From: Saprospiraceae bacterium
Lineage (GTDB): Bacteria; Bacteroidota; Bacteroidia; Chitinophagales; Saprospiraceae
Reading direction: 5' to 3'
Length of the DNA stretch: 64,000 nt
NCBI GenBank assembly: GCA_026129545.1
Contig: JAHCHX010000002.1
Span: 1 to 64,000 of the forward strand
Shown: one piece after another, positions 6,094 through 24,184 of the stretch
Position numbering within the stretch: position 1 is the first letter of the stretch
Layout: each line of letters starts with the position of its first letter
Program-made: the position numbers and the translations under genes
The notes under the pieces: generated by a model
What the model was told of the DNA's origin: nothing
What the model saw: the letters and a program-made list of their open reading frames with translations, nothing else
The model's database searches: none

Positions 6094-6696
6094 ATGAAAA
6101 AAATGCTCTCTCCGCCTGCAAAGGCAAATACGTTGTTGCTAATGCTTGTGGCCTTGTGGCTGCTCGCCTGCTACAAAGACGCCCCCCCGCCGTATGTGAA
6201 ACCCGACCCCTGCCCTTGGCCTGAAATCACGACTCAAGGCTTGAACACCTTCGGCTGCAAAATCAATGGCAAGGAGTGGGTGCCTTGTGTGGATATTTAT
6301 GGGGCGGTGGTCGGTCTTCGACCTATTGATTGCACTCTACGGGAATCGGATAGAAGCAATTTTCTGGGCGTTGATGCCAGTTACTCTATGTCTTCAATTT
6401 CCGATACAAGCAATCTTTTTTTCTTAGGGTTGAAACCCTTGAAAGAGGGAGTCATAAATCCGCAAGATTTGGCACATCTTCGAATAAAGTTTAGCCTTTC
6501 ATACAACGGTGGGCTAAGCTCTACATCTTGGTCTGCCGACAGTTCTGGGATTGGTACGACTATAGAAATCTTACGACTTGACACTTCCCAAAATATCATA
6601 GCAGGAAAGTTCTCCAGTTTGCTATTCGCTAACGCTGGTGGCGACACTCTTGTATTAACCGATGGCCGCTTTGACCTCAAATACTATCCACAATAA
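6094..6696 (+). CDS. Hypothetical lipoprotein
   Basis: A 200-residue predicted lipoprotein: a basic start, a hydrophobic stretch and the lipobox LLAC near residue 26, followed by a Pro-rich linker. The mature part has two clustered cysteines (FGCKINGKEWVPC) early on and a beta-rich remainder. The opening GCKINGKEW is the kind of start seen in small Bacteroidota DUF6252-like lipoproteins, but I do not assign it firmly. I took the ATG at 6094, which begins the signal peptide, rather than the earlier ATG at 6031. The stop lies 18 bases before the degraded hydrolase gene, so the two may once have been an operon. Confidence 0.7.
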   Translation: MKKMLSPPAKANTLLLMLVALWLLACYKDAPPPYVKPDPCPWPEITTQGLNTFGCKINGKEWVPCVDIYGAVVGLRPIDCTLRESDRSNFLGVDASYSMSSISDTSNLFFLGLKPLKEGVINPQDLAHLRIKFSLSYNGGLSSTSWSADSSGIGTTIEILRLDTSQNIIAGKFSSLLFANAGGDTLVLTDGRFDLKYYPQ

Positions 6697-6714
6697 CTTT
6701 AAAACTTCTCAGCC

Positions 6715-8046
6715 ATGAAAAAAATCCTCTTCTTTCTCTTTTGCGCATTTGCTGCGTTTTCCCTCAGTGCCCAATCAGGCAACAGACTCCCTGAGGTGCT
6801 TAACCACTTGACCGCTCCTCTCAACAAAACTGAAATTGTCTCCAATTTTCTCTGGGACAAAGGCCTCAACGGCCTTGCTGAACCAGCCATATTCGACGGC
6901 ATCATGCGTGATTCAGTTTATCTACAGCCTGCCACCTTCGGTTTCCTGTATGCTCAGGCGCGAAACGCTTATGCAGGCATGGGAGCAAATCCTTTGCCCC
7001 ACCCGGACGTGTACATGAACTATGTGAACCGCTACACCAGCACCGACACCGTCCCGCTTGCCGCGCTTGCCCTGCGCTACCACCGCATCCACAAAGACGC
7101 GCTGCCCAACCACCTGCTTACCCTGCAAAACGAGCAACTGTCCGACGTGCCGGGGCGCACTCAAAGCCCTTATCGGCAGGATACGCTGCTTGCCTTCGCG
7201 CCTTTAAAATCAGATGCTTGGCATACTACGGTGCATTTTACGCTACCGACCGACCTCTTCTGGCAAAATTTGGGCTAGACTAATCCTTTGTTGCAAGCCG
7301 ACTTCGGCGACGGCCAAGGCTGGCGAACGCTCACAGCAGGTCAGACCTACACTGTCGAGTACGATTCCGGTGGAGTGAAGACCATCTCGACCCGCATCCA
7401 ACAAGGCAGTACAACACTCGAAGGGCAGTCCATTTTTTTCGTGGCAGAGCAAGCCGTTCAAGAGCGTGGCGAAGGCCTAAATTATCCAATAGACCCAGAG
7501 GATATTATCCCGGTAAATGCCGGTGCTGACCTCCGCATTTTTTATGGTTCTCCTTGCAACAAATTACTCAAACCGTTTGTCATCGTGGAAGGGTTTGAGT
7601 TGGTGAATGACCCATCAGTTTTTCAAGACCGTTTAAAGCGATTGCTACAAAAAGGAGATGCTATTACTGGCACTTCTCAACCCCTCGGCGAGTGGCTCTA
7701 CGCCCAAGGCTACGACATCGTGTGGGTCAACCTGACATACATCCAAGACTACATCCAGAACAGCGCCGAAATGGTGAAAGCCTGCGTGCAAGCGGTGAAC
7801 AACATCAAAGCCGCCAACGGCAGCAGTGAGCCGAACATGATAATGGGCGTGAGTGCCGGAGGCATCATCACCAAGTACATGCTGCTCAAGGCGCAGCAGA
7901 CGGGCTTCGACCACCAGTGCGAGAAATTTTTCTCCTACGACGCGCCGCTGTGTTTTGGGCATGGCCAAAAGCGCAATCTGTTCAAAATCAGGGAGAGCGA
8001 GCATGAGCATCTGACAAATCTTGGAGAATCAAGGTATAAAAGCTAA
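6715..8046 (+). pseudogene. Broken secreted alpha/beta hydrolase (in-frame stop, truncated 3' end)
   Basis: One frame runs from a signal-peptide start at 6715 to 8046 but is interrupted by an in-frame TAG at 7276-7278. The residues on both sides join naturally (WQNLG-stop-TNPLLQADFGDGQGW), so this is one gene of about 443 codons rather than two. The downstream half holds a lipase-like nucleophile elbow GVSAGG and the following SYDAPL segment typical of PGAP1/lipase-like hydrolases. Immediately after SYDAPL the frame enters an 86-base dispersed repeat (7953-8038) and stops. The rest of the hydrolase fold, including the expected catalytic His, is therefore missing. Two independent lesions argue for a pseudogene rather than a sequencing error. 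Confidence 0.85.
7953..8038 (+). repeat. 86-base dispersed repeat, copy 1 (truncates the hydrolase)
   Basis: From TTTTGGGCATGGC to GAATCAAGGTATA. It aligns without gaps to the reverse complement of 21571-21656, and I count about 20 mismatches by eye. It replaces the 3' part of the hydrolase gene and supplies its final residues and stop. The outermost 13 bases at each end are the best conserved part. Confidence 0.8.
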
Positions 8047-8126
8047 ATTTTTCCAAAAACGCAACCCCGACGGGAGAACATGCTGTCTATGTCAGCATTC
8101 GTTTACTCACTAAATTCTCCCAAGCT

Positions 8127-8849
8127 ATGCACAACAAACACCTGGGCAAACTCGCCCTATTGCTCCTCCCTGCCCTCCTATCCATCGTCGCTTGCGACCC
8201 CACTGCCATCAGAGGCAACGGCGACCTCGTGACCGAAAAACGCGATGTCGCGGATTTTGCCGGCGTACACGCTTCCGTCCCCGGAAAAGTCAACGTGCTC
8301 TCAGGCATGAAGCACAATGTGGAAGTAAAGGTCGAGGAAAACCTCCTGCCTTATCTCAAGACAGAAGTCGAATCCGATGGGAACCTGCACGTCTATTTTT
8401 CTCGCAACGTGCGCGATGTGGACGGCCTCGTGGTGACCGTGACCATGCCAAACCTGAACGCGCTCTACCTCGCTGGCAGCGGCGAGATAACGACCCAAGG
8501 TGCCTTCAAAGGGCAATCGCTCCAACTGGATGTGTCTGGCTCCGGCCACATCAAAGCAAACGACCTCGACTACCATTCCGTCAAGCCCCGCTTGAGCGGC
8601 AGCGGTCACATTGACTTGCAAGGCGAGGGCGGCATCATGCAGGCCAACCTATCCGGCAGCGGCTTCATCAACACCCTTGATTTCCCCGTGAAAGATGCGG
8701 AAGTGAAAATAAGCGGCTCCGGAGTGGTCAAAGTCAACGCCTCGGCAACGCTCAACGTGTCCATTTCGGGCAGCGGAGAAGTACGGTACCAAGGCAGCCC
8801 TTCGATAGAAACCAATATCTCGGGTTCGGGAAAAGTGGTGAAAATTTGA
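8127..8849 (+). CDS. GIN-domain (DUF2807) lipoprotein, putative auto-transporter adhesin head
   Basis: A 240-residue lipoprotein. The signal peptide ends in a lipobox at SIVAC (Cys about residue 23). The mature part is a right-handed beta-helix-like DUF2807/GIN domain: an opening RGNGDLVTEKRDVADFAGV, the V..G....V.V strand signature, then six regularly spaced SGSG turns from about residue 115 to the C-terminus. Members are surface or periplasmic proteins of unknown biochemical role, common in Bacteroidota. It is preceded by the broken hydrolase and has no obvious operon partner. The following small membrane-protein gene is on the other strand. Confidence 0.9.
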   Translation: MHNKHLGKLALLLLPALLSIVACDPTAIRGNGDLVTEKRDVADFAGVHASVPGKVNVLSGMKHNVEVKVEENLLPYLKTEVESDGNLHVYFSRNVRDVDGLVVTVTMPNLNALYLAGSGEITTQGAFKGQSLQLDVSGSGHIKANDLDYHSVKPRLSGSGHIDLQGEGGIMQANLSGSGFINTLDFPVKDAEVKISGSGVVKVNASATLNVSISGSGEVRYQGSPSIETNISGSGKVVKI

Positions 8850-8870
8850 GGCCACACCCCTTGCCGTTGC

Positions 8871-9140
8871 TCAGCGCGTTCTCAGCCAGCGCAACAAACC
8901 GTAGAGCGCGACGAGCAGCGGCAAGGCTGCCAGAATGGTCGCCAGAATCGTCAGCCATTTCACTTTCAAAAGCAGCATCAGCGCACACAGCGCGACGTAG
9001 ATGCCCAGCGTCAATACATAGGCTTGCCCCAATCCCCTACCCGCCGCGTCGGCGCCGTTCCTCGGAAATATTAGGCTCCACAACCAGAGCAGCACAAGCA
9101 AAACATCCAGCGCGATGAGGGTCCAAGCGAATTCGTACAT
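8871..9140 (-). CDS. Small hypothetical membrane protein
   Basis: An 89-residue protein with three predicted membrane segments: about residues 5-25 (very Leu/Trp rich), 40-60 and 63-82. It ends in a basic RWLRTR tail, suggesting a cytoplasmic C-terminus. I do not recognise a family. It is convergent with the GIN-domain gene (22-base gap). The ATG at 9140 is the only plausible start for the whole hydrophobic protein. Small size makes this less certain than its neighbours, but composition argues for a real membrane protein. Confidence 0.6.
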   Translation of the reverse strand: MYEFAWTLIALDVLLVLLWLWSLIFPRNGADAAGRGLGQAYVLTLGIYVALCALMLLLKVKWLTILATILAALPLLVALYGLLRWLRTR

Positions 9141-9324
9141 ACCGAGATAGTGATGAATGGTAAACGATGATGCGTGATTCTACCCTTGTTGGCAAAGGTA
9201 CCGACTATGTGTCCGATTGGGAAGCAAGATACGCGAATGTATGTTTCCGACGATAGCGCCAGCTTTATTTCAAAACATTTCTTTTCATTTTATTTCGGGA
9301 ACAAACAAAAAGTGAAATTCGGCC

Positions 9325-9332
9325 TACATTTG
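9325..9332 (+). promoter_or_regulatory. Predicted -7 box of rmuC (TACATTTG)
   Basis: An exact match to the Bacteroidota -7 consensus TAnnTTTG, 20 bases before the rmuC ATG. No good TTG at 17-23 bases upstream. Confidence 0.45.
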
Positions 9333-9352
9333 TCAGCAAAACGCTCGACATC

Positions 9353-10669
9353 ATGGACAGCACGTTCTACTTGTTGCTCGGCGGCATCCTGCTCGTATTG
9401 CTCGTGGTGCTATTCCAACGCCGCCCCTCTTTCACCCCTCAGGCCGCTGGCGAATTCGTACCGAAAGCACTTCACGACACCATTGCCGCACAGGCAGAGC
9501 AGTTGCGCGGCGAAATCGCTGCCCGCGAACAGGAACTCCGCGACGCACTCGCCCAACTCGCCGCCCGCGAGCAGCAGATTTTTCACCTCGAAAACAACCT
9601 GCAAAACCAAAAAGCCGAGGTGGAACAGCTGCAAGCACGATTCAAAACCGAATTTGAAAACATCGCCAACCGACTGTTGGAAGAAAAATCGCAGCGGTTC
9701 ACCGCCCAAAACGCACAGCAATTGCAGTCGGTGCTCAGCCCGTTGAAAGAAAAAATCAAGGAATTTGAGGAAAACGTGGAGCGCAAGTTTTTGGAGGAAA
9801 CGCGCGAAAAAACCAGCCTGAAAAAAGAAATCGAGCAGCTCCACCAACTCAACCAACAACTCAGCCACGATGCCCACAACCTTGCCGCCGCGCTCAAAGG
9901 CCAAAGCAAAGTGCAGGGCGACTGGGGCGAGCTCCAACTCGAAACCCTACTAGAAAAATCAGGCCTGCAAAAAGGCGTGCACTTCCTCACGCAAGTCACC
10001 TACCGCGACGACGACGGTCACGCCAAACGCCCCGACTTCATCATCCATCTGCCCGAAAACAAGCACCTCGTCGTGGATGCCAAAGTGTCGCTCACCGCAT
10101 TCGAGCGGTATTTCAACACAGACGACCCCAACGAACGCGACCAACACCTCAAAGCGCACGTCACCAGCCTTCGCAACCACGTCGAAAACCTAAGCCGCAC
10201 CAACTACCAGATGCTTTACCAAATCAACACACCCGATTACATGCTCCTCTTCGTGCCTTTGGAGGGCGCCCTCACCATAGCCGCGCAAGCCGACCCCAAA
10301 CTCTTCACCGACGCGCTAGAACGCAACATCGTGCTCGTCACCACCAGCAGCCTGCTCGCCACCATGCGCACCGTCGCCCATCTTTGGAAACAAGAAAAGC
10401 AAACCCGCTCGGTGCTCGAAATAGCGCGGCAAAGCGGCCTGCTCTACGACAAGTTCGTGGCTTTCGTGGAAGACCTGCGCACCATCGGCAACCGACTCGA
10501 CAACGCCCGCACGGCCTACGACGATGCCATGAACAAACTCACCAGCGCCGCCCGCCCCGGCGACACCCTCATCGGCAAGGCCGAAAAAATCAGAGAACTT
10601 GGCGCAAGAGCCTCCAAATCACTGCCCCATGAACTACTGCTCGACGAGGAATCAACAAACCACCAATAA
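9353..10669 (+). CDS. rmuC: DNA recombination protein RmuC
   Basis: A 438-residue member of the RmuC family, implicated in limiting DNA inversion and recombination; the C-terminal part is related to the PD-(D/E)XK nuclease fold. An N-terminal membrane anchor (about 5-22) is followed by a long coiled coil rich in Gln, Glu and Ala (about 40-180). The conserved core then shows KGQSKVQGDWGELQLETLLEKSG, the HLVVDAKVSLTAFERYF segment, the YMLLFVPLEGAL segment and TRSVLEIARQSGLLYDKF. Length and domain order are normal. It stands alone, with a -7 box 20 bases upstream and a repeat-rich gap downstream. Confidence 0.95.
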   Translation: MDSTFYLLLGGILLVLLVVLFQRRPSFTPQAAGEFVPKALHDTIAAQAEQLRGEIAAREQELRDALAQLAAREQQIFHLENNLQNQKAEVEQLQARFKTEFENIANRLLEEKSQRFTAQNAQQLQSVLSPLKEKIKEFEENVERKFLEETREKTSLKKEIEQLHQLNQQLSHDAHNLAAALKGQSKVQGDWGELQLETLLEKSGLQKGVHFLTQVTYRDDDGHAKRPDFIIHLPENKHLVVDAKVSLTAFERYFNTDDPNERDQHLKAHVTSLRNHVENLSRTNYQMLYQINTPDYMLLFVPLEGALTIAAQADPKLFTDALERNIVLVTTSSLLATMRTVAHLWKQEKQTRSVLEIARQSGLLYDKFVAFVEDLRTIGNRLDNARTAYDDAMNKLTSAARPGDTLIGKAEKIRELGARASKSLPHELLLDEESTNHQ

Positions 10670-10710
10670 CCCCCCCCCCCGCCAGGACAAACGCACCAGA
10701 ATGGCACAAA

Positions 10711-10881
10711 CCTCGGAGAGGTCAAATGTCGGTAGAAACGCCCCATTTTCGCGGTGTTTACGACCCCGGCGGGGTCGAATGTTGGTGACCTTTGCTGCGA
10801 TAGACATTTGACCTCTCCGAGGTCGTGATAATTATCACAAAAACACACCATTTCTACCAACATTTGACCTCTCCGAGGTCG
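10711..10881. repeat. Cluster of GACCTCTCCGAGGTC-type palindromic repeats in a geneless stretch
   Basis: The 321-base gap 10670-10990 holds no gene but three copies of one unit, read as TTTCTACCRACATTTGACCT followed by CTCCGAGGTC. One is inverted (10711-10738) and two are direct (ending 10825 and 10881). Between them is a related palindrome CGACCCCGGCGGGGTCG (10761-10777) followed by AATGTTGGT. A degenerate relative lies at 35777-35806. The core is self-complementary, so each copy can form a hairpin. There is also a C-homopolymer just after the rmuC stop. Confidence 0.85.
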
Positions 10882-10966
10882 GTTGTATTTTGATGCGTTT
10901 GCCCTGCCACCCCCCGCCCGAACAGATGTTCGTCCCGGCGAACATAGGCCAACATCCAAAAAACAC

Positions 10967-10974
10967 TAACTTTG
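10967..10974 (+). promoter_or_regulatory. Predicted -7 box of the TPR histidine kinase (TAACTTTG)
   Basis: An exact TAnnTTTG match, 16 bases before the ATG at 10991. No clear -33 element. Confidence 0.45.
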
Positions 10975-10990
10975 TCGCAAAATATCAGCC

Positions 10991-12895
10991 ATGCACGGCT
11001 CCGAAACAGCAGTAATGTCAGGCAAAATCAGCGAAGCACCTCCCTTACTCCGTTTTCAATGCGAGCAACTTTCGCGGTTGTCATTCACCGATTTTGAGCA
11101 GGCGTGGGAAATGCTCAACGAAATCAGCACCCACGTCACGCCACAATCGCCCTTTGAAATTCGGCTGGCCTATCACCAAAACGCCTCGTTCCTCAACAAC
11201 CAACGCCATCGGTACGAACCAGCGCTCGAACACGCCAAGCAAGCCATCGCCATCCTCGAGAGCCTCGCCAAAGCCGACTCGCTCGCCGAAGCTTGGGCCG
11301 ACCTCGCAGCCATTCACCTCAATCGCCGCGATTGGCGAGCCGCCGAAAAAGCCCTCGACCGCGCCCGAAAATATCTCAACAAAAACGCGCCACCACACCT
11401 TCGCGCCCACATAGCCTGCCGCGAAGGCTTCCTACACCTCCATCTGGGCAATCAGCGCCAAGCACTCGACGCGCTCATGGAAGCCCAAAGAGGAATGCTT
11501 CGGCTCGACGAGGACAAGGGCACCCTCAAAGACTTTTACATTCAAACACTCATTTTCAGTGGATTGGGCGACCTCCACGAACACCTTGACGAGAAGGCCA
11601 AAAGCCTCGAAGCATACCGTCGGGTGCTGCCCATCGTGGAGCGCCACGGGCTGCAACCCCGTCTGGCCTGGCACTACCTCAACGCCGGGCGTGCGGCCAT
11701 GGCCCAACAAGACGTGGGCCAAGCAAAAGCCTGTTTTGAAAAAGTGCTGGAAGTGGCAAGCGAGGGCGAGAAAGAGGTACGCACCCATGCGCTGGGCAAT
11801 CTCGGCATTCTGGCTTTGCTCAACGATGACGTCAAGCAAGCCGAGGCGCTGTTCGATTTGGCCGCAGAGCAATACGAAAAACCACTCAAACCCACCGATT
11901 TCACCAACATTTCCAAAATAGAAAGCTGGCGCGCGGGCTTGTTTTCTCAAATCAACGACCTCGAAAAAGCCGAAGAATCGTTGAAAAATTCTTGGGAAAT
12001 GGGGCAAAAAGGGCAAGACCTGTATCATTTGAGCCAAATAGCCCAAAATCTCGCCGCGCTAAGGAGCCAAAAAGAGGACTACGAGGAAGCGTACGAATGG
12101 CAACGCAAGGCCACCGACTTGGCAGCGCGACATTTTCATCAACTACGCGACCGCGAACGCGAGGAAATAGAAGCTCGGCACCAGCTCGAACGCAACCGCC
12201 AAGAAGCACAAATGGCCAAGCTGCGCGTCGCCAGCCTCCAACTTCGCGCCCTTCGCGCCCAGATGAACCCCCATTTCATGTTCAACGCGCTCAACGCCAT
12301 CCAAGGGTTGATTACCTCCGGACGCAACAACGAGGCCGAATCCTACCTCGCCAAGTTTGCCAAAATGATGCGGCACACCCTCGAATACTCCGACCTCGAA
12401 GTGGTGGCCTTGGAGCAGGAAATCGAATTTCTCGACCGATACTTGGACATCAACCGAAAGCTGAGATTCCGCGACAGGCTTTTTTACCAAATCATCCCGC
12501 CAGCAGGAGCCGACATGACCGACCTCCAAGTGCCGACCATGATTTTGCAGCCCTTCGTGGAAAATGCCATCGAGCACGGCTTGCGCCCTCGACAGGAAGG
12601 CAACCTGCGCATCGAATTCCAACTCGCGGAAAACGGCAATATGCTGCGCTGCCTCATCGAGGACGATGGCGTGGGATACAACAAAGGCAAGGAAAAACAA
12701 AAAGAAGGAGCCGCCTTTCAGTCGCACCGCTCGCGTGGCATGGACATCACCCGCGAACGCCTCAGCCTGCTTCATCAGCTCCAAAAACACGAATCGGGCG
12801 ATTTTATCCGCATCAACGATCTAGGCGACCTCACGTCAGGCGAACGCACGGGCACCCGCGTCGAGGTGCTGCTGCCCCTGCTGGAAGGCGACTAA
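10991..12895 (+). CDS. TPR sensor histidine kinase, LytS/YehU type (HisKA_7TM-less)
   Basis: A 634-residue protein. Residues about 30-385 are alpha-helical tetratricopeptide-like repeats (several A..N.G.......A...F..A units). A charged coiled coil follows (about 385-420), then a His_kinase (PF06580-type) box LRAQMNPHFMFNALNAIQGL with the phosphorylatable His at 428. The HATPase module shows the N-box region PFVENAIEHGL and the glycine motif EDDGVGYN. I see no signal peptide or membrane segment, so unlike most of its relatives it seems cytosolic. No LytTR response regulator is adjacent, making it an orphan kinase. The partner must be elsewhere. Its start is supported by a -7 box 16 bases upstream. 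Confidence 0.88.
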   Translation: MHGSETAVMSGKISEAPPLLRFQCEQLSRLSFTDFEQAWEMLNEISTHVTPQSPFEIRLAYHQNASFLNNQRHRYEPALEHAKQAIAILESLAKADSLAEAWADLAAIHLNRRDWRAAEKALDRARKYLNKNAPPHLRAHIACREGFLHLHLGNQRQALDALMEAQRGMLRLDEDKGTLKDFYIQTLIFSGLGDLHEHLDEKAKSLEAYRRVLPIVERHGLQPRLAWHYLNAGRAAMAQQDVGQAKACFEKVLEVASEGEKEVRTHALGNLGILALLNDDVKQAEALFDLAAEQYEKPLKPTDFTNISKIESWRAGLFSQINDLEKAEESLKNSWEMGQKGQDLYHLSQIAQNLAALRSQKEDYEEAYEWQRKATDLAARHFHQLRDREREEIEARHQLERNRQEAQMAKLRVASLQLRALRAQMNPHFMFNALNAIQGLITSGRNNEAESYLAKFAKMMRHTLEYSDLEVVALEQEIEFLDRYLDINRKLRFRDRLFYQIIPPAGADMTDLQVPTMILQPFVENAIEHGLRPRQEGNLRIEFQLAENGNMLRCLIEDDGVGYNKGKEKQKEGAAFQSHRSRGMDITRERLSLLHQLQKHESGDFIRINDLGDLTSGERTGTRVEVLLPLLEGD

Positions 12896-12958
12896 GCATG
12901 AGCCAACAAACTTTACGATAACTTAAAACGAGAAGCACAGCACCTACACACGAGCCAC

Positions 12959-12966
12959 TACCTTTG
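12959..12966 (+). promoter_or_regulatory. Predicted -7 box of the PiT-like permease gene (TACCTTTG)
   Basis: An exact TAnnTTTG match, 39 bases before the ATG at 13006. No convincing TTG -33 element. Confidence 0.4.
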
Positions 12967-13005
12967 CCGTCAAATTCACGACCACACCCTATTTTTTCTC
13001 GAAGC

Positions 13006-14142
13006 ATGGCGAAAAAAGACATCCCTCAAAGCCCCACCAGATACGGGCGCATTTACCTGAACGTGTTGGACTTTTTCGTCCAAGACAGGTTGTTTCTCAT
13101 CATAGCGGGTTGCGCCTTCATCGTGGCTGGTTTTGCCGTGCTCGACCCCAACACCGCCATGTGGTTCGGTTTTCTCTTTGCGGCTTACGCGGCAGTGGCC
13201 AACGACAGTATCCAATCGCTCGGCACCTTCATCGAAAGTAACCGAAAGCGCAAATGGTATATCCTCTGGATGTTCACGGGCCTCATTTTTATCGTGGTCA
13301 TCGCGTTCAGTTGGTTTTATTTCAATGGCGATGTCACTTATCAGCGCCTACTGGATGACAAAGGCAACACCAAATACCCGCATCCGCAGCAGTTTTCCTA
13401 CTTTCAGGTGATAGCCCCGGTCGTGTTGCTCATCCTCACCCGACTGCGGATGCCGGTTTCCACCACCTTTTTGCTGCTCAGCGTGTTTAGTGCCGATGCC
13501 TCTGGGGTCACATCCATCGTTTACAAAAGCGTGACAGGCTATGTGCTGGCGTTTGTGCTTTCATTCCTTGTGTGGCTCGCCAGCTACCAAACCATCAAGA
13601 AGTATTTCAAAAAAAGAAAAGCGCACTATCTCTGGACGGTGGTACAGTGGACGGTGAGCGGCTCCCTATGGGCCGTTTGGCTCATGCAGGATGGCGCCAA
13701 CATCGCCGTGTTCTTGCCGCGCACGCTGAATTTCACGCAATTCCTCATCTTCACCGTCGTCATCTTCTTGGGGCTTGGGCTGCTGTTCTATTTGCGCGGC
13801 GACAAGATTCAGAAAATCGTCAGCGAAAAGACCCGAATATCCGACGTGCGCGCTGCCACGCTGGTGGATTTTACTTATGTCATCCTCCTCATTTACAAGC
13901 TGCTCATCAGCAACATCCCGCTGAGTACCACATGGGTGTTCCTCGGTGTGATTGGCGGTCGAGAAATCGCAGTCAACTATATGCGGAAAAAGAAAGGGAA
14001 AAAGCACATCAAAATGGCGGTTTACTCGATTTCAAGAGACTTGCTATACGCGCTCATCGGGCTTGCGGTCTCCGTTATTTTGGCCATGGGAGCCAATCCG
14101 CTTATCCGCCAGTCGGTAATCGGAGCAATTTCATTGGAATAG
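13006..14142 (+). CDS. PiT/PHO4-family-like inorganic phosphate permease
   Basis: A 378-residue polytopic inner-membrane protein with about ten hydrophobic segments. Two internally related halves each carry the PiT signatures in degenerate form. In the first half a VANDSIQSLGTFIES segment (about 63-78) and a later RMPVSTTFLLL (about 147-157) stand for GANDVANAFGT and PVSTTH. In the second half QDGANIAVFLPR (about 227-238) and IPLSTTWVFLGVIGGRE (about 302-318) repeat the pattern. That pairing is why I place it near PiT phosphate or sulphate permeases; the substrate is inferred. A phosphate-selective-type porin lies convergently just downstream, which supports an anion/phosphate uptake role. 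I chose the ATG at 13006, as the upstream extension from 12964 overlaps the -7 box. Confidence 0.65.
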   Translation: MAKKDIPQSPTRYGRIYLNVLDFFVQDRLFLIIAGCAFIVAGFAVLDPNTAMWFGFLFAAYAAVANDSIQSLGTFIESNRKRKWYILWMFTGLIFIVVIAFSWFYFNGDVTYQRLLDDKGNTKYPHPQQFSYFQVIAPVVLLILTRLRMPVSTTFLLLSVFSADASGVTSIVYKSVTGYVLAFVLSFLVWLASYQTIKKYFKKRKAHYLWTVVQWTVSGSLWAVWLMQDGANIAVFLPRTLNFTQFLIFTVVIFLGLGLLFYLRGDKIQKIVSEKTRISDVRAATLVDFTYVILLIYKLLISNIPLSTTWVFLGVIGGREIAVNYMRKKKGKKHIKMAVYSISRDLLYALIGLAVSVILAMGANPLIRQSVIGAISLE

Positions 14143-14236
14143 GAGAATAAGTTTTTTTCACGTTCAGCATGGCGCTATGTTTCCAGATGGGCATGCCACA
14201 AGGCCGCCCCCTGCGCTGTTTTCAACCAACAGCAAA

Positions 14237-15427
14237 TCAAATCCCCATCTCCACCTGAAACCGCCATTGAAAACCCGAGCCAGCGCCAGTAGTGGTGGCT
14301 GGGTTTTTCAAATGCTCGTAAGTAAGGTCAGTCTGAACCTTCACCCTGTGTTTGTTAAGGTATTTTCCCAAGCAAATCCCGTATTGCATTTTTTTGAGCT
14401 CCACATCATACAAGTCACGTTGAGGCTCCAGATACGAGTGACGCAGGGCGAGCTCCCACATTTGTCGGGTGCAATAACTAAATTGGGTATTGATTCCCTG
14501 ACCAGCATACACATAGCGAAAATTCAAGTCATTGTCGAACGTCTTAGGCTTGTCGCTACTTCGCTTCAAGTATTCGCTCGAAAGCGCCCAGCCATTGTAT
14601 TTGAAAAGCAAGTCCAAGTGTATGCTGAACAAGTCGCGAGGCTCGTAAAGAAAAGGCCCCAACTCCCCCCCGGTGCGTTTGGCACTTTCGTTAAAATGCA
14701 GCGTACCTGCTGCTGATAGTTTAGGGCGAGGCTCATGCAGCAAATCACCCTCGAAGTAGTCACTCCTTTCGGAAAAAGGCCCCAAGGGCAACAATTCCAG
14801 CCGAGCGGTGTAGGCCAATCCTTTGTCGGATGGCAGCGCGTTCCGCCCCTCCCCCGCGGTGACGGCTGTTTTCACCCTGTATGCAAGGTACCCCTTGTCG
14901 GAGGCATAATTGACAAAAATGCCCACGTCGCGGTCGAGCGTAAGCATATTGTTCACGATAGAACGGTCAGCAAATTGTTGTTCGCCGGAAGAAATGACAC
15001 GCTGCCGATTGCCGGGCAATTTTCCCTGGCCAATGCCGATAGTGAAACCCTGATTGATTCCATACCATATCATGGCATCGCGCAGCACATTCGGCACGTT
15101 GCTCACATCCCAATCTTGGTCGGCGCGAGAAAACGATAATTGCACATGGTAAGAAAATTTCGGATTTAGCAAAAAACCCTCAAACCGCAGACGCATCCGG
15201 CGCACCCGAAGGTCAAACTCCTGCACATCTGAATCCGGGCCTGAAAAATGATAAAATCCAACGCGGCTCTGTACGCGAAAACGCAAAGCGAGCGAAAAAG
15301 AAGAGTCAACCGCCGCAAACCGAACACCATTGTCAAGAGTCGTTCTTACTCCTTGGGCATTAGGTTGAAATGGCAAAAAGGACAACAAGGCCCCGCAAAA
15401 AGCGATAGCCTTTGCATTAAAAATCAT
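14237..15427 (-). CDS. Phosphate-selective porin O/P-family outer-membrane protein
   Basis: A 396-residue predicted 16-strand-type porin. The signal peptide is about residues 1-25 (PNAQG). The early motif SLALRFRVQSRVGFYHFSG and the segment DLRVRRMRLRFEGFLLNPKFSYHVQLSFS are the hallmark of the OprO/OprP (PF07396) family. A downstream GIGQGKLPGNRQRVISS segment and aromatic-rich strands follow to the C-terminal WRFQVEMGI. It would let phosphate or other anions cross the outer membrane. It is convergent with the PiT-like permease, with their stops about 94 bases apart. Phosphate specificity is a family-level inference; no Pho-box-like element could be defined by eye. Confidence 0.85.
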   Translation of the reverse strand: MIFNAKAIAFCGALLSFLPFQPNAQGVRTTLDNGVRFAAVDSSFSLALRFRVQSRVGFYHFSGPDSDVQEFDLRVRRMRLRFEGFLLNPKFSYHVQLSFSRADQDWDVSNVPNVLRDAMIWYGINQGFTIGIGQGKLPGNRQRVISSGEQQFADRSIVNNMLTLDRDVGIFVNYASDKGYLAYRVKTAVTAGEGRNALPSDKGLAYTARLELLPLGPFSERSDYFEGDLLHEPRPKLSAAGTLHFNESAKRTGGELGPFLYEPRDLFSIHLDLLFKYNGWALSSEYLKRSSDKPKTFDNDLNFRYVYAGQGINTQFSYCTRQMWELALRHSYLEPQRDLYDVELKKMQYGICLGKYLNKHRVKVQTDLTYEHLKNPATTTGAGSGFQWRFQVEMGI

Positions 15428-15629
15428 AGATCAGGAATTTTCGATACAGCGCCGCAAGATAGGTGAACAAGTTTTTTCTGCCGATAAAAACCTTTTCTCA
15501 ACAAACAATGCCCCGGCCTTTTGGCAGAAAAAAACACACAGAGGCGTGTAGTAGATAAAGACTTGTCGCCCAATCACCTGTAATACGCAAAACACGCACG
15601 ATAAATCCCCCTACCGCTTTCAACCTCAT

Positions 15630-16073
15630 TCAACCCCTCCCCTGCTCTCGCATGATTTCCAGCAGCCTGACCATCAGGTAAGACAAAATCAGGCTGGCCG
15701 CGATGCCCTCCACAAGAATAAAAAGACTGGCCGTGACAGGTGTGAAGTATTGGCCAATTGGCGACTCGTTCTGGATGTTAGCCAAAAACGCGGGGCTGTA
15801 AGCCAAGAACAACACCATGAATATCGTGAACGGAAGCACCCCCACGAAGGAAGTAAACATACCCATGATGACACCGGACGTGTAGTCGTCGGAAGGCTCG
15901 TGGTGGTCGCGGTACCATACACGCAAAGCCATCCAAAGACAGCCAACGTGGATTACGGCGTTGAAGATGCGCAGATAATAGTTTTGGCTTAAATCAAGGA
16001 GGTGCATGAGGAGGAAGAACACTGTGAAGCCCAGAAACATCCAAAGGCCATAGCGAAGAGCGATGTTTGTCAT
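15630..16073 (-). CDS. DUF4199-like four-helix membrane protein
   Basis: A 147-residue inner-membrane protein with four hydrophobic segments at about 5-27, 32-52, 68-95 and 110-140. The second is followed by RVWYRDHHEPSDDYTSGVIMG, a layout typical of DUF4199 proteins in Bacteroidota. Function is unknown. The frame extends upstream to 16157, but I took the ATG at 16073 because it begins just before the first membrane segment and the extension is basic and AT-rich. It lies upstream of the porin gene on the same strand with a 200-base gap. Confidence 0.72.
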   Translation of the reverse strand: MTNIALRYGLWMFLGFTVFFLLMHLLDLSQNYYLRIFNAVIHVGCLWMALRVWYRDHHEPSDDYTSGVIMGMFTSFVGVLPFTIFMVLFLAYSPAFLANIQNESPIGQYFTPVTASLFILVEGIAASLILSYLMVRLLEIMREQGRG

Positions 16074-16343
16074 AACCCGAACTGTTTTGGTGAAAAAAAG
16101 TGGCCGCTTGAAATTCGGGCTAAATTTACGATTTGTTTTTATTTTTTGACAAAACAACTATTCAAGTAATCATTGTGCAAAAACATCTTTTTAAAAGCAT
16201 AAAAAATAAAGGAAGCGTTTTTTTCAAACAATAATTCCAATTAACACAAGCCGTTGCCATTGTTGATATCCTTGCTAATGTCGGCAGGGATAGCACTGTT
16301 ACCACATTCTTGAACTCGTCCCGAACTTCGTACATTGCGCTTG

Positions 16344-17186
16344 TCACTCCCCAACGAACCTTTTCAAATCGCTCCGGCGAAATTTCCACTCTGGTGTTTC
16401 CAACACCTCGCCAAAATCAGCCGAATACCACGGGCTTAATCGCCCGTCTGACGAGTTTTTTAGCACCTGAATTTCCTGTGCAGGCATATAACTCTGCGCC
16501 AATAAGAACACTTTTTGACCTGCCTCATTGGTGGCCATGTCCACCACGATGACTGCATGGCCGGGCGAGCCGCCTTGTATGAACACATCTCCGATTTGCA
16601 TGGTTGCCACATCCACCGCTTGCATTTCCTTCGACAGCGACAGGGTGCCGGCATAAGTGAACACCAGCTCGAGGTATTGCCAGAAGGTCTCGTAGGAGTC
16701 GGATGGAGCCGACTTTTGCTCCCAGCTCGTCCGGTTGCCCGTCACTTTCACGCGCTCGCCTTTGCGCCAGCGCTCGTAGTCCACGCGGAAGCCGTTGGTC
16801 AGGTTGAAATGGATGTCGCGGTATCGCCCCTTTCGCCACAGATACTCCGCCCGCAGCCGGATGATGGCATCGGCGCATTGGTGCAAGTCTTTTTTGCCAA
16901 TAGGCATATCCACCACCGCGTCGTACACGCCGGAGTTGCTTTTCTCCCTTCCATCATGCAAGAGGACTTTGCTGCCGACTGGCTTGAGTGGCAGGTAGCG
17001 CAAATAGTGCGCGAAAGCGCTGGAATCAGCGGTGACACGCTCATAGCCTTGTGGCGGGGAAAATCGCTGGCAGAGCAATGAATCGGGGGCAGGCTGGGGG
17101 GCTTCGGTTGTTGTTTTCGTGTCGGATGGGATTGTTTGAAAGCAAGTCCCGATGAAAAACAGGAGCGGCAAGCAGGATATTTTCAT
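16344..17186 (-). CDS. Secreted DUF4846-family protein
   Basis: A 280-residue secreted protein, possibly a lipoprotein: its short hydrophobic start leads to FIGTCFQ, a weak lipobox. The mature part begins with the RFSPPQGYERV segment, then FAHYLRYLPLKP, the DMPIGKKDLHQCADAIIRLRAEYL block and IGDVFIQGGSPGHAVIVVDMA. These are the conserved blocks of the DUF4846 family. The GSPGHAVIVVD element looks like a catalytic or metal-binding loop, but no activity is established. Its 5' end is followed by an inverted repeat (17234-17295) and a DUF1990 remnant on the other strand. Confidence 0.85.
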   Translation of the reverse strand: MKISCLPLLFFIGTCFQTIPSDTKTTTEAPQPAPDSLLCQRFSPPQGYERVTADSSAFAHYLRYLPLKPVGSKVLLHDGREKSNSGVYDAVVDMPIGKKDLHQCADAIIRLRAEYLWRKGRYRDIHFNLTNGFRVDYERWRKGERVKVTGNRTSWEQKSAPSDSYETFWQYLELVFTYAGTLSLSKEMQAVDVATMQIGDVFIQGGSPGHAVIVVDMATNEAGQKVFLLAQSYMPAQEIQVLKNSSDGRLSPWYSADFGEVLETPEWKFRRSDLKRFVGE

Positions 17187-17233
17187 AGATAGTTAACGCA
17201 AGGCATCACCCCTCATTTTGAGCGAGTTCAAAT

Positions 17234-17295
17234 AATGGACTTGTTGCGGTGGAGGGCTTCCCTTCGCCAAAGGCCTCCACCGCCATAAGTCCATT
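17234..17295. repeat. Imperfect long hairpin (AATGGACTT...AAGTCCATT)
   Basis: The outer 9-base arms AATGGACTT/AAGTCCATT and the inner arms GCGGTGGAGG/CCTCCACCGC are separated by small bulges and a loop of about 16 bases. It lies between divergent units (DUF4846 gene and DUF1990 remnant). A smaller relative with the same GGACTTGT-GCGG core occurs at 58977-58998. Confidence 0.75.
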
Positions 17296-17351
17296 CAATA
17301 GAGCAACGAACTTACTGCCTAAATAACCGTTTCTTTTGAAAAACACCCAAT

Positions 17352-17683
17352 ATGCTCCTCTTTTCCCGACCCAATGACCCCCTCATTCGCGCTTTCCTTG
17401 ATGCTGAAAAACAACTCCCGTAAGTTACCCGGAAATAGGACGTAGCCAACACGAAGACCCTGTGGCAGGTTATGATAATGATTTGAACACCATCGAACTG
17501 GGGCGGGGCGAAGGCGTTTGGCTCGCTGCAAAGGAGGCCGTCAGGCAATGGAAGATGTTTCCCGGCGGCTGGTCCTACATCACCAACATGAAAGTCTGGC
17601 ATGGCACCTTGAATGCCGCAGGCTTTGGCTGGCTGGTGCTGCATGGCTGGGTGCAGGCATCGAAAGCACAAGAGAATGCCTAA
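17352..17683 (+). pseudogene. Frameshifted and truncated DUF1990-family gene
   Basis: An ATG at 17352 opens MLLFSRPNDPLIRAFLDAEK and would stop at 17421. In the -1 frame the protein continues as VSYPEIGRSQHEDPVAGYD, then NDLNTIELGRG and AAKEAVRQWKMFPGGW to a stop at 17683. Together these give the conserved N-terminal two thirds of DUF1990: the S-YPEIG block, the LGRG block and the A...W.MFP.GW block. The C-terminal third of the family, including its FAYGTLPGH region, is missing. The break sits at or just after a run of five A's (17407-17411); one extra A would restore the frame. A homopolymer indel (real or sequencing) is therefore likely for the frameshift, but the missing 3' end argues for genuine decay. 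Confidence 0.7.
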
Positions 17684-17688
17684 ACCGC

Positions 17689-17696
17689 TACTTTTG
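17689..17696 (+). promoter_or_regulatory. Predicted -7 box of the thioredoxin-lipoprotein operon (TACTTTTG)
   Basis: An exact TAnnTTTG match, 63 bases before the ATG at 17760. No convincing -33 TTG. Confidence 0.4.
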
Positions 17697-17759
17697 CCCG
17701 CTCCCTGAACAACTCGCCCGCCGCCCTGTTTCAGCGGCAGTTTCTCAACAGTGTTCAAT

Positions 17760-19058
17760 ATGCACAAATATTTGGCTTTCAGTATGCTCATGGTGCTTGC
17801 CGCGGGCTGCGTCACCACTGACACGAGTTTCACCCGCGTAGCGCCCGGAATGTGGCGCGGTGTGTTGGAGTTGGAAAAATACAAGGTGCCCGTGCACGAC
17901 AAGGATACCATTTTCGTGCTGCACGACCTGTTCAAGGAAGGCGAGTTGCCATTTAATTTTGAGGTGACCTATCTCGACGAAGAACAGTTTTATGTGGAAA
18001 TCATCAACGGCAGCGAACGCATCCGACTCGACAGTATCCAATATGGACGCGACCGCACCCGTGCCCGCGACACGCTGAACATCCATTTCCCCGAATATCA
18101 AACCTACCTGCACGCCGAGGTGCGCGGCGGCACCATGCAAGGCGAATGGGTGGTGACTACCCGCGAAAATTACCGCATCCCGTTCTACGCCCATGCCGGA
18201 CGCGACTATCGGTTCACCAACCTGACCCAAAAACCCGACAAAGACCTCAGTGGCGAATGGGCCACGCTCATCGGCACGGACACGGACAAGCCGACCAAAG
18301 CCATTGGCGAATTCAAGCAAACCGGCAATCGGCTGGAAGGCACATTCCGCACAGAAACAGGCGATTATCGCTATCTCGAAGGCACGGTGCAGGGGCGAAA
18401 ATTCTGGATGTCCAACTTCGATGGTTGGCACGCTTATCTGTTTAGTGGAAGCATTCGGGGCGACTCGCTGAACGGCGAATATCGCTCCGGCAAACATTAT
18501 CGCACGCTATGGTCGGCTTGGCGCGACCCGAATTTCAAGTTGGGAAAAGCCGATTCGCTGACAACTTTGAAGACGGGGACGAATTTTTCTTTCCAACTTC
18601 AAACACCGGATGGCCGCGATTTGGCGTTTCCCTCGCAAGTATTTGATGGAAAAATCAAAATTTTCACCATCATGGGCACTTGGTGTCCCAATTGCCGCGA
18701 CGAGCAAATGTTTCTCAAGGAATACTTGGCCCAGCACCCCGCAGCCGCACAAGACATCGCGGTGGTGAGCATTGCCTTCGAGCGCCACAAGGATACCGCA
18801 CAAGCCAACGCCCATTTGTTGGAATACAAGCGGAAAATGGGCATACCGTTTGAAATAGTATATGGTGGAAAAGCCGACAAAACCGAAGCTGGGAAGGTGT
18901 TTCCAGCGTTGAGCGAAGTGCTGGCTTTCCCCACGATGATTGTGGTGGACAAACAAAATAAGGTGCGCCACATCCATACCGGATTCGACGGGCCCGCCAC
19001 ATCGAAATACGAGACGTTCAAAAAAGACTTTGCCTCATTGATGGAAAGTCTGCGTTAA
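17760..19058 (+). CDS. Thioredoxin-fold (TlpA/ResA-like) lipoprotein
   Basis: A 432-residue lipoprotein with the lipobox LAAGC at Cys17. Residues about 30-275 form a beta-rich domain of the kind found before TlpA modules, possibly lipocalin-like. The last ~150 residues are a TlpA/AhpC-type thioredoxin fold with the redox motif TWCPNC (Cys309, Cys312) and the cis-Pro segment LAFPTMIVVDK. It probably acts as an extracytoplasmic thiol-disulfide reductase. The frame could start at a GTG at 17751, but ATG 17760 gives a standard signal peptide. Only 10 bases separate its stop from the TIR-TPR-SDR gene, so the two are very likely one transcript. Confidence 0.88.
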   Translation: MHKYLAFSMLMVLAAGCVTTDTSFTRVAPGMWRGVLELEKYKVPVHDKDTIFVLHDLFKEGELPFNFEVTYLDEEQFYVEIINGSERIRLDSIQYGRDRTRARDTLNIHFPEYQTYLHAEVRGGTMQGEWVVTTRENYRIPFYAHAGRDYRFTNLTQKPDKDLSGEWATLIGTDTDKPTKAIGEFKQTGNRLEGTFRTETGDYRYLEGTVQGRKFWMSNFDGWHAYLFSGSIRGDSLNGEYRSGKHYRTLWSAWRDPNFKLGKADSLTTLKTGTNFSFQLQTPDGRDLAFPSQVFDGKIKIFTIMGTWCPNCRDEQMFLKEYLAQHPAAAQDIAVVSIAFERHKDTAQANAHLLEYKRKMGIPFEIVYGGKADKTEAGKVFPALSEVLAFPTMIVVDKQNKVRHIHTGFDGPATSKYETFKKDFASLMESLR

Positions 19059-19068
19059 ATACGAAAAC

Positions 19069-21465
19069 ATGAACCGAATTATCCTCGCCTACTGCCATGA
19101 CAATGCCGAACTGGCCGAACAAGTCGAACACGACCTTAGCCGTATCGGTATCCCTTTTGACCACCTCACCAACCAAACTGGCGAAAAGCCGGGGCATCTA
19201 AGCATCCGCCTGCACAGCGCGGAAGACCCCGTCGTGCTGTTCGTCACTGATAATTTTTTCAAGAGCCGCGACTGCATGGATGGAGCCTTGGCCGCCGTGC
19301 AAGCCCTCCAACGCAGTCAGCGCCTGCTCGTGGTGGTGGCCGACGGCAAAATAAGCCGCGACGGAGGCACCACCTTCGAGCGCGTGGAGACGCACTTCGA
19401 CCGCATGGTGTACGCCTTGCAATACATGAACTTCTGGCAATCCGAATGGCTCGCGCTGAGCGACCGCTACCAGCAAAGCGAGGGCAGCGCGAAAGCAACG
19501 CTGGAACTCGAAATGAACGCCTCTCGCAACATCGCCAACGAAATCGGCGAGCTCATCGGCGTACTGCGCGAAGGCGGCTATGTGAGTTGGGAGCAATTTT
19601 TGGCTGACGACTATATGCTGTTTTTCAAACAATTCGGCCTTCAAGAATGGCACGCGCAGTATCGCTTGATTGCCAAGGATTCATACATCCCACAAGACAG
19701 CACTCCGCCCATACCTCCCACTGCGCCGATGCGCCCCTTGTCCGAAACGCCCATCGTGGCGGGCGGATTGGTGCCAGCACCCACGCAGACCGACACGCTT
19801 GCCACTGGCAGCGACTTTGCAGCGTTGAATTTTGCGCTTGAAACTGAAAAAAGCGACACCAACGGACATTTCAACAACAGTGAAATCACTACTCCCACGC
19901 CCGCCGACGACTTGCCGCCGCAAACCGATTGGGATTTTGCCAACATGGATGCCCTCCATTTTGACGAGGAAACCGAAAGCCCCATCCATGATGCCGAAGA
20001 CCAAATCGAACACGCCATCCGCGATGCGTGGGTTTGGATAGAGCAGGGCTACACTGACCGGGGCATCGAGCTGCTTCAGTTCACGCTGGAGCAACACCCC
20101 GACAATCTGCGGATTCAACAGGAATACCAACTCGCTTTGGCAAAGACAAAACCTCAGCCACCCGCAACCGAGTCTTGGGCCGCTCCAGAACCCCCACCAG
20201 CACCCATTGAGGTCGCTTCCGCAGAGCCGAGCCTCGCGGAAAACGAGTGCCGCTCCTACAATCTCATGGGCGACATGGCCGCCGAGAAAGGCGACTATCT
20301 TTTTGCCAAATACTGCTGGGACCGCGTGGCAGACCTCAACCCCGATTTCCCCGGCATTTTCCGAAAACTCGGCCTAATGACGAGCGAGCACCTGCGCGAC
20401 TACCGCGAGACCGCTTTGCATTATCTTAAAAAATCCCTCGAACACCAACCCGACGACGCGGAAGTGCTGCTCGCCGTAGCGCGCGCCTATCAAGAAAATG
20501 ACAATGCTGCCGAGGCCAACACGCACTATGCCCAAGCTGTCATGCTCGCCCCAAGCCTCCGCTCTGCCGAACTCGACCAGACATTTGGCTACGGTATCGC
20601 CACCACTGCTTCGCCAGAGGTGGCACCAGAAACCCCCAGCGCGTTGGCGCCCTCGTCCGGCGAAATGGAGCCTGCGCCCCAGCCAGTAGTCGAGCCGCGC
20701 GAGGTGCTGACCGTGCTTGTCACAGGAGCCACATCAGGCATCGGTCGCGCAACGGCTGAAGTGTTTGCTCGACACGGCCACCGCGTCATCCTGACGGGCC
20801 GTCGGGTAGAGCGTCTGGTGCTGCTGAAAACACAATTTGAGGAAGAACTCCGCGCCGACGTACTCATGCTGCCTTTCGATGTGAGAGAGCCGGGCACCGT
20901 GCAAGCCGCGCTTGACAACCTGCCGGAGTCATGGCAAAACATTGACATTCTGGTCAATAACGCCGGCCTCGCCAAAGGTCTCGCGCCTATCCACGAGGGC
21001 GACATCGCTCATTGGGAGCAGATGATTGACACCAACATAAAGGGATTGCTTTACGTCACCCGCGCCGTCGCGCCCGGCATGGTGGCCCGCCGCCGGGGTC
21101 ACATCATCAACATTGGCAGTAGCGCAGGGAAGGAGGTGTATGCGAACGGCAACGTCTATTGCGCCACCAAATTCGCCGTAGAAGCCCTCACGCGCGGCAT
21201 TCGCCTCGATTTGCACAAGCACAACATCCGCGTCAGTCAGGTCAGTCCGGGCCATGTGGAGGAGACGGAATTTGCTATCACCCGCTTCGACGGCGACGCT
21301 GAACGCGCCCGTATCTACGACGATTTCCAGCCACTCAAATCGAGCGACGTGGCCGAAGCGATTTATTGGCTCGCCACCCGTCCGCCGCACGTCAACGTGC
21401 AGGATATTCAACTTTACGCAACACAACAGGCGAGCGCGACGGTGGTGAATAGGAGTGGGAGGTGA
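19069..21465 (+). CDS. TIR-like / TPR / short-chain dehydrogenase (YdfG-like) fusion protein
   Basis: A 798-residue three-part cytosolic protein. Residues 1-92 fit a TIR fold: an opening strand MNRIILAYCHDNAELAEQVE, then IGIPFDHL and DPVVLFVTDNFFKSRDCM. The catalytic Glu expected near residue 72 is not present there (Asp71, Gly72). About 310-500 are TPR-like helices separated by Pro-rich linkers. From 546 a complete classical SDR follows: TGATSGIG (552-559), NNAG, Ser684, and YxxxK at Tyr697/Lys701. Its stretch from ILVNNAGLA to HIINIGSSAG closely resembles YdfG, the NADP-dependent 3-hydroxy acid / L-allo-threonine dehydrogenase. No stop or frameshift breaks the joins. TIR proteins bind or consume NAD and this partner uses NAD(P), but with the degenerate site I expect a scaffold or sensor role. 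The substrate is unknown. Confidence 0.8.
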   Translation: MNRIILAYCHDNAELAEQVEHDLSRIGIPFDHLTNQTGEKPGHLSIRLHSAEDPVVLFVTDNFFKSRDCMDGALAAVQALQRSQRLLVVVADGKISRDGGTTFERVETHFDRMVYALQYMNFWQSEWLALSDRYQQSEGSAKATLELEMNASRNIANEIGELIGVLREGGYVSWEQFLADDYMLFFKQFGLQEWHAQYRLIAKDSYIPQDSTPPIPPTAPMRPLSETPIVAGGLVPAPTQTDTLATGSDFAALNFALETEKSDTNGHFNNSEITTPTPADDLPPQTDWDFANMDALHFDEETESPIHDAEDQIEHAIRDAWVWIEQGYTDRGIELLQFTLEQHPDNLRIQQEYQLALAKTKPQPPATESWAAPEPPPAPIEVASAEPSLAENECRSYNLMGDMAAEKGDYLFAKYCWDRVADLNPDFPGIFRKLGLMTSEHLRDYRETALHYLKKSLEHQPDDAEVLLAVARAYQENDNAAEANTHYAQAVMLAPSLRSAELDQTFGYGIATTASPEVAPETPSALAPSSGEMEPAPQPVVEPREVLTVLVTGATSGIGRATAEVFARHGHRVILTGRRVERLVLLKTQFEEELRADVLMLPFDVREPGTVQAALDNLPESWQNIDILVNNAGLAKGLAPIHEGDIAHWEQMIDTNIKGLLYVTRAVAPGMVARRRGHIINIGSSAGKEVYANGNVYCATKFAVEALTRGIRLDLHKHNIRVSQVSPGHVEETEFAITRFDGDAERARIYDDFQPLKSSDVAEAIYWLATRPPHVNVQDIQLYATQQASATVVNRSGR

Positions 21466-21469
21466 GGCA

Positions 21470-21571
21470 TTATTTGAGCAACTCGAAAATTAGCGGTGCA
21501 TTCCTCCCTACCGCCAACTTCGACACATCACCAACTTCCTCTCTCGTCGCCACGTTTTTTGCTTTTGAAAT
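21470..21571 (-). pseudogene. C-terminal remnant of a second GH13 gene
   Basis: Read on the minus strand, 33 codons and a stop encode ISKAKNVATREEVGDVSKL and then a tail ending in FELLK. This matches the last residues of the intact GH13 gene nearby (FSKAKNVATGEVLSDISKI... VLELLK) in content, frame and stop position. Nothing upstream continues the GH13 protein; the frame runs straight into the 86-base dispersed repeat. It is best read as the leftover end of a tandem paralogue whose body was lost. Confidence 0.75.
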
Positions 21572-21656
21572 ATACCTTGATTCGCTGGGATTTGTTAGAT
21601 GAACATGATTGATGTTCTTGATTTTTGGCAGATTGCGATTGCAGCCATGCCCAAAA
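21571..21656 (-). repeat. 86-base dispersed repeat, copy 2 (borders the GH13 remnant)
   Basis: On the minus strand this runs from TTTTGGGCATGGC to GAATCAAGGTATA, the same length as 7953-8038 and about three quarters identical by eye. Its right end abuts the GH13 remnant exactly where that homology stops. Confidence 0.8.
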
Positions 21657-21672
21657 CCTAACGGCGCGAAGT

Positions 21673-22137
21673 ATGGAAGGCGTAATGACTGACCCCTCAG
21701 CGCGAAGGTTCGTTTTTCAAAATTTTCATTTTTTCCCGGAAGCCTCTGACGACGGGAGTGTCATGCTGTTTGGCTGGGACAACGAACGATTCATCATGCC
21801 CCGACACCAAAACATAATTATTCAGGTGGGTAGAAACGACCAAGCATCTTCACGCGAACTGACGTTTCAAATACCAAATGAGATGATGCAAAGACCCTTC
21901 TTTCAAATGCGTTATCGAACGCAGTTCGTAGAAAGCGAATCGGAGGCTGCCATCGAAATAAACGGCTACCGGTTTCCATTGACCGTTTCAAATCAAAACA
22001 GTGAACCTCAATTGCTCGAGATACCTATAAAAGCGCTTCGACGCGGGCAAAATGTTTTTAAATTTCTCTACAATGAGAATTCCCGGGCGGAAAAGTTTAA
22101 AGGGTACATCATTTACTATCTTGAGTTTGTTCCATAG
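21673..22137 (+). CDS. Hypothetical protein
   Basis: A 154-residue protein of unknown family. The frame is open from a TTG at 21625, but those first codons lie in the dispersed repeat, so I start at the ATG at 21673; an ATG at 21685 is equally possible. No signal peptide. The sequence is beta-rich (QNIIIQVGRND, ELTFQIPNEM, AAIEINGYRFPL, LLEIPIKALRRGQNVFKFLY), reminiscent of a single beta-sandwich, carbohydrate-binding-like domain. It sits on the opposite strand between a GH13 remnant and an intact GH13 gene, with its stop 9 bases from the GH13 stop, so it may have arrived with the rearrangement that destroyed the second GH13 copy. Reality as a gene rests on composition. Confidence 0.55.
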   Translation: MEGVMTDPSARRFVFQNFHFFPEASDDGSVMLFGWDNERFIMPRHQNIIIQVGRNDQASSRELTFQIPNEMMQRPFFQMRYRTQFVESESEAAIEINGYRFPLTVSNQNSEPQLLEIPIKALRRGQNVFKFLYNENSRAEKFKGYIIYYLEFVP

Positions 22138-22146
22138 GAAAAAGTG

Positions 22147-24054: not shown

Positions 24055-24095
24055 GGTAGTTTTTTCGTCTTTTTTTGGGCACATGATGAAGTTTG

Positions 24096-24184
24096 TTTTT
24101 TGACAGGATTTACAGGATTTGGAGGGGATTCCGCTCAAAACGTGCAAAAAGCCTGAAAATCTTGTCAATCCTGTCAAAAAAACA
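24096..24184. repeat. Inverted pair of TTGACAGGATTTACAGGATT-type repeats
   Basis: The left arm at 24096-24120 (GTTTTTTGACAGGATT then TACAGGATT) pairs with the right arm ending at 24184 (AATCTTGTCAATCCTGTC then A-run) over about 25 bases with two mismatches. The same sequence family recurs at 46666-46736. It lies between the GH13 and GlsB-like genes. Confidence 0.8.

Follow-up and report, generated by a model that had tools for sequence, protein, structure and literature searches.

A TA-inserting repeat at two broken genes of a Saprospiraceae genome is very probably an IS630-driven MITE

Introduction

Two unrelated genes in a Saprospiraceae genome break off at copies of one short repeat, which raises the question as to whether the repeat cuts genes or lies at these breaks for other reasons. 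An earlier note on the stretch of DNA analysed here (the window; 64,000 nt, positions 1–64,000) had proposed a mobile element that deletes or caps genes, as opposed to an intergenic repeat. We compared the window with the remainder of its own genome (G000) and with a sister genome, the Saprospiraceae MAG ACE_BAC3 (JAHBTU01; G008). Based on these comparisons, we consider it very probable that the repeat is a ~105-bp miniature inverted-repeat transposable element (MITE) that is driven by an IS630 transposase, inserts at TA and has no gene-cutting role, and that its copy at 7953 served as one end of a deletion.

Results

Extent, copy number and distribution of the repeat

The two copies in the window, at 7953-8038 (+) and 21571-21656 (-), align without gaps and are identical at 66 of 86 positions, in agreement with the earlier estimate of about three quarters; no third copy was found in the window at 48/86 or more. 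A search of the whole G000 genome returned 40 scored matches with E-values of 4.1e-20 or better, and the two exact ends, for which the earlier note had suggested a genome-wide search, occurred with a spacer of 60-75 bases at 72 places, against none for the reversed control pattern. The similarity is therefore far beyond chance. Twelve copies are identical across all 86 bases. When copies were compared together with their flanks, the full element proved to be ~105 bp long with ends TATAC...GTATA, both 86-mers being its inner part, because shared sequence extends upstream of the 86-mer and reads TATACTTCGCGCCGTTAGG or TATACYTCGCGCCGCCAAG. Specifically, TTTTGGGC is not a unit boundary, since the upstream TATACTTCGCGCCGYYARG is common to other copies; the ungapped repeat was real, and its proposed length of 86 bases has to be revised.

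The copies fall into two subfamilies, an old one that includes the 7953 copy and a young one that includes the 21571 copy. Alignment with other copies places the old copy at 7941..8038 (+), where it is without the outer left end TATACTT and finishes with AATCAAGGTA, followed by TA at 8037-8038. The young copy is complete at 21571..21673 (-), with TA at 21571-21572 and at 21672-21673. Profile searches detected 43 near-complete copies in 800 kb of G000 (~54/Mb) and 53 in 1.63 Mb of G008 (~33/Mb), giving a map of 96 copies over 2.43 Mb; by simple extrapolation from these portions, the totals would be ~300 and ~190 per genome, respectively. Some copies form head-to-tail clusters, in part with a regular spacing of ~141 bases (G008:C1:285683-285715, G000:C1:3480013-3480919 and G008:C5:101610-101977), and runs of a AATCCTGTCAATCTTG-type short repeat adjoin several copies (flanks of L008, L017, L023 and L029). 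A degenerate core pattern revealed no other species in the GTDB collection, in which records of the window's own genome were possibly left out. Among 40 relatives besides G008, G014 alone had weak, partial core matches, and searches of phage and plasmid collections gave no match to the element.

Target sites and candidate transposase

Six pairs of filled and empty sites between G000 and G008 revealed insertion at TA with duplication of the TA, the kind of target duplication that the earlier note had proposed to look for. At G000:C2:104974 the filled site reads GGCGGTTTTA[element]TCAAGCC and the empty site GGCGGTTTTATCAAGCC; at G000:C1:184090, ACTC-TA[..]TA-ATAATG corresponds to the empty ACTCTAATAATG, and the pairs at G000:C1:1650695 and C1:1938620 have the same form. 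The left TA duplicate at G000:C2:115925 reads CA, with one base changed, and at G000:C1:3119439 the element's first base is changed. Further copies, the majority from the older subfamily, occupy the same site in both genomes. Duplication of TA is a mark of the IS630/Tc1-mariner superfamily.

Four loci in G000 carry an IS630-type DDE domain. The ORF at G000:C1:3331947-3333044, with 366 codons from stop to stop, encodes an IS630 family transposase that scored 185.9 bits against NF033545 (cut-off 100) and also matched PF13358; the transposon is bounded by TATACCTCACGCCGCCAAGTTTTCAGCATGGC. The left end of the element is identical to this IS end at 28 of 32 positions and to the end of a 120-bp palindromic MITE at 29 of 32. 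Scores above 18 are rare among the other TATA-anchored 32-mers in 800 kb, and the 32-mers that reach them are presumably element copies. The right end, TATACCTTGATTCGCTAGGATTTGTC, is diverged, matching the IS end at 15 of 26 positions; the terminal TATAC...GTATA are inverted, with the remaining inverted repeat imperfect. Because its left end matches the terminal repeat of an IS630 transposon, we regard the element as an IS630-driven MITE, and the transposase at C1:3331947-3333044 probably moved it in trans. This transposon is present as one copy in G000 and is absent from G008, though G008 carries ~33 element copies/Mb; for both reasons the G000 IS may be a relative rather than the source, and the original source of transposase may have been lost. 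Four findings bear out the mobility suggested in the earlier note: TA is duplicated, G008 has empty sites, young copies are near-identical, and a transposase gene has ends that match.

On comparison, the transposases bounded by different ends (L133/L135, L140 and 25 copies in G008) did not fit as partners. The 120-bp MITE is a nearly perfect palindrome located in G000 at C2:164579, 211897, 392787, 490450 and 586745, and its terminal sequence is that of the element and of the IS. A second MITE family, TATACCCAGATTAAAGAGG...GTTGACTATA, inserts at TA as well (G008:C1:213874-213962 versus the empty G000:C2:74258), with a further locus at G008:C1:~272170-272400; its ends resemble those of another G000 IS630 transposon (L133/L135), the right end at 22/27. 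A third IS630 transposon, with ends TTATAGCCCCGTGCAT, has 25 near-identical copies in G008, e.g., L134 and L144, and its frame is apparently divided between two ORFs (173 and 186 codons) that overlap.

Placement relative to genes

When genes were predicted by dicodon score over the 2.43 Mb, of which ~82% was coding, 95 of the 96 mapped copies were intergenic. The exception is the copy at 7953, which counts as lying within an ORF because the frame of the truncated hydrolase passes through it. Taken together, the family is therefore not located in broken genes. This largely reverses the earlier view that the unit is not an intergenic repeat, and gene deletion or capping as a function of the element finds no support either in this placement or at 7953, where the copy was a passive end point. 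Insertion between genes would nevertheless not by itself lead one to expect both window copies at gene breaks.

The two gene breaks

The 5' remnant of a large hydrolase gene occupies 6643..7950 (+), with ORFs at 6715-7278 and 7288-8046 that are split by TAG, the last of which reads ~30 codons into the element. Hydrolase coding sequence has replaced the outer left end of the 7953 copy, whose counterpart in G008, at G008:C1:285683 (-), keeps its own left end, AATACTTCGCGCCGCTGTG. At this locus G008 is collinear with the window and ~95% identical; its hydrolase has ...TCCTACGACGCGCCGCTGCGCGGGGC and then continues, and the element starts with AATACTTCGCGCCGCTGTGTTTTGGGC 4,352 bp further on. The window junction reads TCCTACGACGCGCCGCTGTGTTTTGGGC, matching the hydrolase upstream and the element downstream, and at its centre the 10 bp CGCGCCGCTG (7941..7950, +) are common to the hydrolase gene and the GC-rich left end of the element, both of which contain them in G008. 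The hydrolase also continues past the break in the homologous loci of more distant relatives, and the lost 4.2-kb G008 segment has no match elsewhere in G000. For these two reasons the change was a deletion in G000, with the element there first; transposition of the hydrolase 3' part was considered and rejected on the same lack of a match. The 4,352-bp interval was lost in G000 by a microhomology deletion, and the element was a passive end point, since the deletion fell between 10-bp copies in the gene and in the element end. The earlier claim that the hydrolase gene is broken at the element is correct, and its relatives do not end naturally at the same residue, the sister hydrolase reading past the break. 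A further nonsense codon interrupts the gene in G000 (window ~7276-7278), and G008 carries a different nonsense codon; the gene was therefore probably under weak constraint.

At the second break, remnants of two genes adjoin the element. The 3' remnant of a GH13-like gene (21467..21570, -), whose similarity reaches the element, is a copy, now diverged, of the 3' end of the GH13 gene next to it at 22147-24177 (-). On the other flank, similarity to a membrane glycosyltransferase, a family name given by eye from the sequence of homologues and not from a model match, likewise reaches the element; this 3' remnant (21674..22137, +) retains the C-terminal ~150 aa of a protein of ~650-770 aa in relatives. 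The N-terminal part was not found in G000 or G008, and G008 has neither remnant. The earlier note was right about the GH13 remnant and missed the second one. An ORF of 798 aa at 19069-21465 (+) encodes a weak TIR-like domain together with TPR repeats and a short-chain dehydrogenase domain.

Alternative explanations

The position of both window copies at deletion-type junctions could suggest that the element actively causes rearrangements, the transposase pairing the ends of two copies, or acting aberrantly on one, and so deleting or inverting neighbouring DNA. In addition, G000 and G008 differ by a ~64-kb inversion (G008:C1 ~440.8k and ~505.0k), with two identical young copies, L023 (G000:C1:1866706) and L024 (G000:C1:1933755), no more than ~200 bp from its two ends. 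We consider such activity improbable, as the 7953 junction lies inside the element end at a 10-bp microhomology and not at the TA cleavage point, and the inversion copies are direct repeats of each other, an arrangement that recombination between inverted copies does not produce; other repeats adjoin them. Moreover, other copies with both flanks in the G008 data are mostly at clean empty sites or shared in place, and synteny breaks in the first 135 kb of the contig are mostly without an element, in a breakpoint comparison of G000 and G008 that covered part of the assemblies outside G008 contig 3. It is equally hard to credit that MITE ends are preferred break points, at which the IS630 transposase would act on a single end or on mismatched ends and so cause deletions and inversions in the host; if true, the clean insertions would understate how far the family reshapes the genome. 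For the 21571 copy alone, an alternative is homologous recombination between direct-repeat copies in the GH13-like and glycosyltransferase genes, by which both 5' bodies would have been lost and a single copy kept; here we see the case as evenly balanced. In its favour, similarity to each gene extends as far as the element, TA closes both sides, and no sequence for the glycosyltransferase N-terminus was detected elsewhere in the genome. However, a young copy inserting at TA in an old junction fits equally, the copy is of the young subfamily and the GH13-like remnant is strongly diverged, and the sister genome, having neither remnant, favours neither order of events.

The repeat could also be a structured RNA or a regulatory sequence, such as an attenuator or a REP-like hairpin, that happens to be repeated. 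The young consensus does fold end to end as RNA (-27.3 kcal/mol) and contains a GAACAT-CAATC-ATGTTC hairpin. Conserved RNA folding, which the earlier note had thought worth checking, was not found: 56 diverged copies have no consensus structure on either strand, and in many copies changes disrupt the hairpin pairs instead of preserving them by compensation. DNA folds are near those of shuffled controls, Rfam 15 gave no match at or above the gathering score in window 7900-22200, and a bias of orientation towards codirectional genes in G000 (21/27) is not repeated in G008 (21/38). We therefore hold this to be the least credible of the alternatives, with almost no likelihood of being correct.

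Discussion

The preferred explanation is that of a non-autonomous MITE, a parasitic DNA element that inserts at TA and duplicates it. An IS630-family (Tc1/mariner superfamily) transposase would have moved it in trans, the candidate being the gene whose only G000 copy has the same terminal sequence. Nearly all surviving copies lie between genes, presumably as a result of selection against insertions within genes. One end of the 4.35-kb deletion at 7953 was an old copy, through 10 bp shared by chance, and we infer that slipped pairing or end joining produced this deletion. The gene breaks at 21571 likewise appear to be secondary events, caused by later deletion.

For the Saprospiraceae, these results add an IS630-type MITE family that has a high copy number and was recently active, and whose candidate transposase is encoded in the same genome. 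They also provide a base-level example of a MITE end as a partner in a gene-truncating microhomology deletion. For annotation, both oddly broken genes are ordinary pseudogene remnants.

Literature searches for a MITE of Bacteroidetes or Saprospiraceae found none described; the family is new in sequence and host, not in kind. RUP, the repeat unit of pneumococcus, has been proposed to be mobilised by IS630-Spn1 (PMC2229807). Like RUP, the present element is non-coding, of ~100 bp, with TA ends, target duplication and a partner in the genome that belongs to the IS630 family and has matching ends; it differs in phylum and sequence, in a right end strongly diverged from that of the partner, and in that this partner is single-copy. 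The Correia/NEMIS elements of Neisseria share a 105-107 bp form, TA termini, target duplication and filled and empty sites (PMC2229807), but their sequence is different, and their conserved stem-loop RNA structure was not found in 56 diverged copies of the Saprospiraceae element. REPs with REP-associated tyrosine transposases are similarly short, abundant and extragenic (PMC2817692); however, REPs are small palindromes, whereas our element has TA duplications and, as its match, a DDE (IS630) transposon rather than a tyrosine transposase. Within the same genome, the 120-bp palindromic MITE has nearly symmetric ends and a different core, yet with TATACCTCGTGCCGCCAAGTTTTCAGCATGG at both ends it shares its terminal sequence with the element, and therefore its likely transposase.
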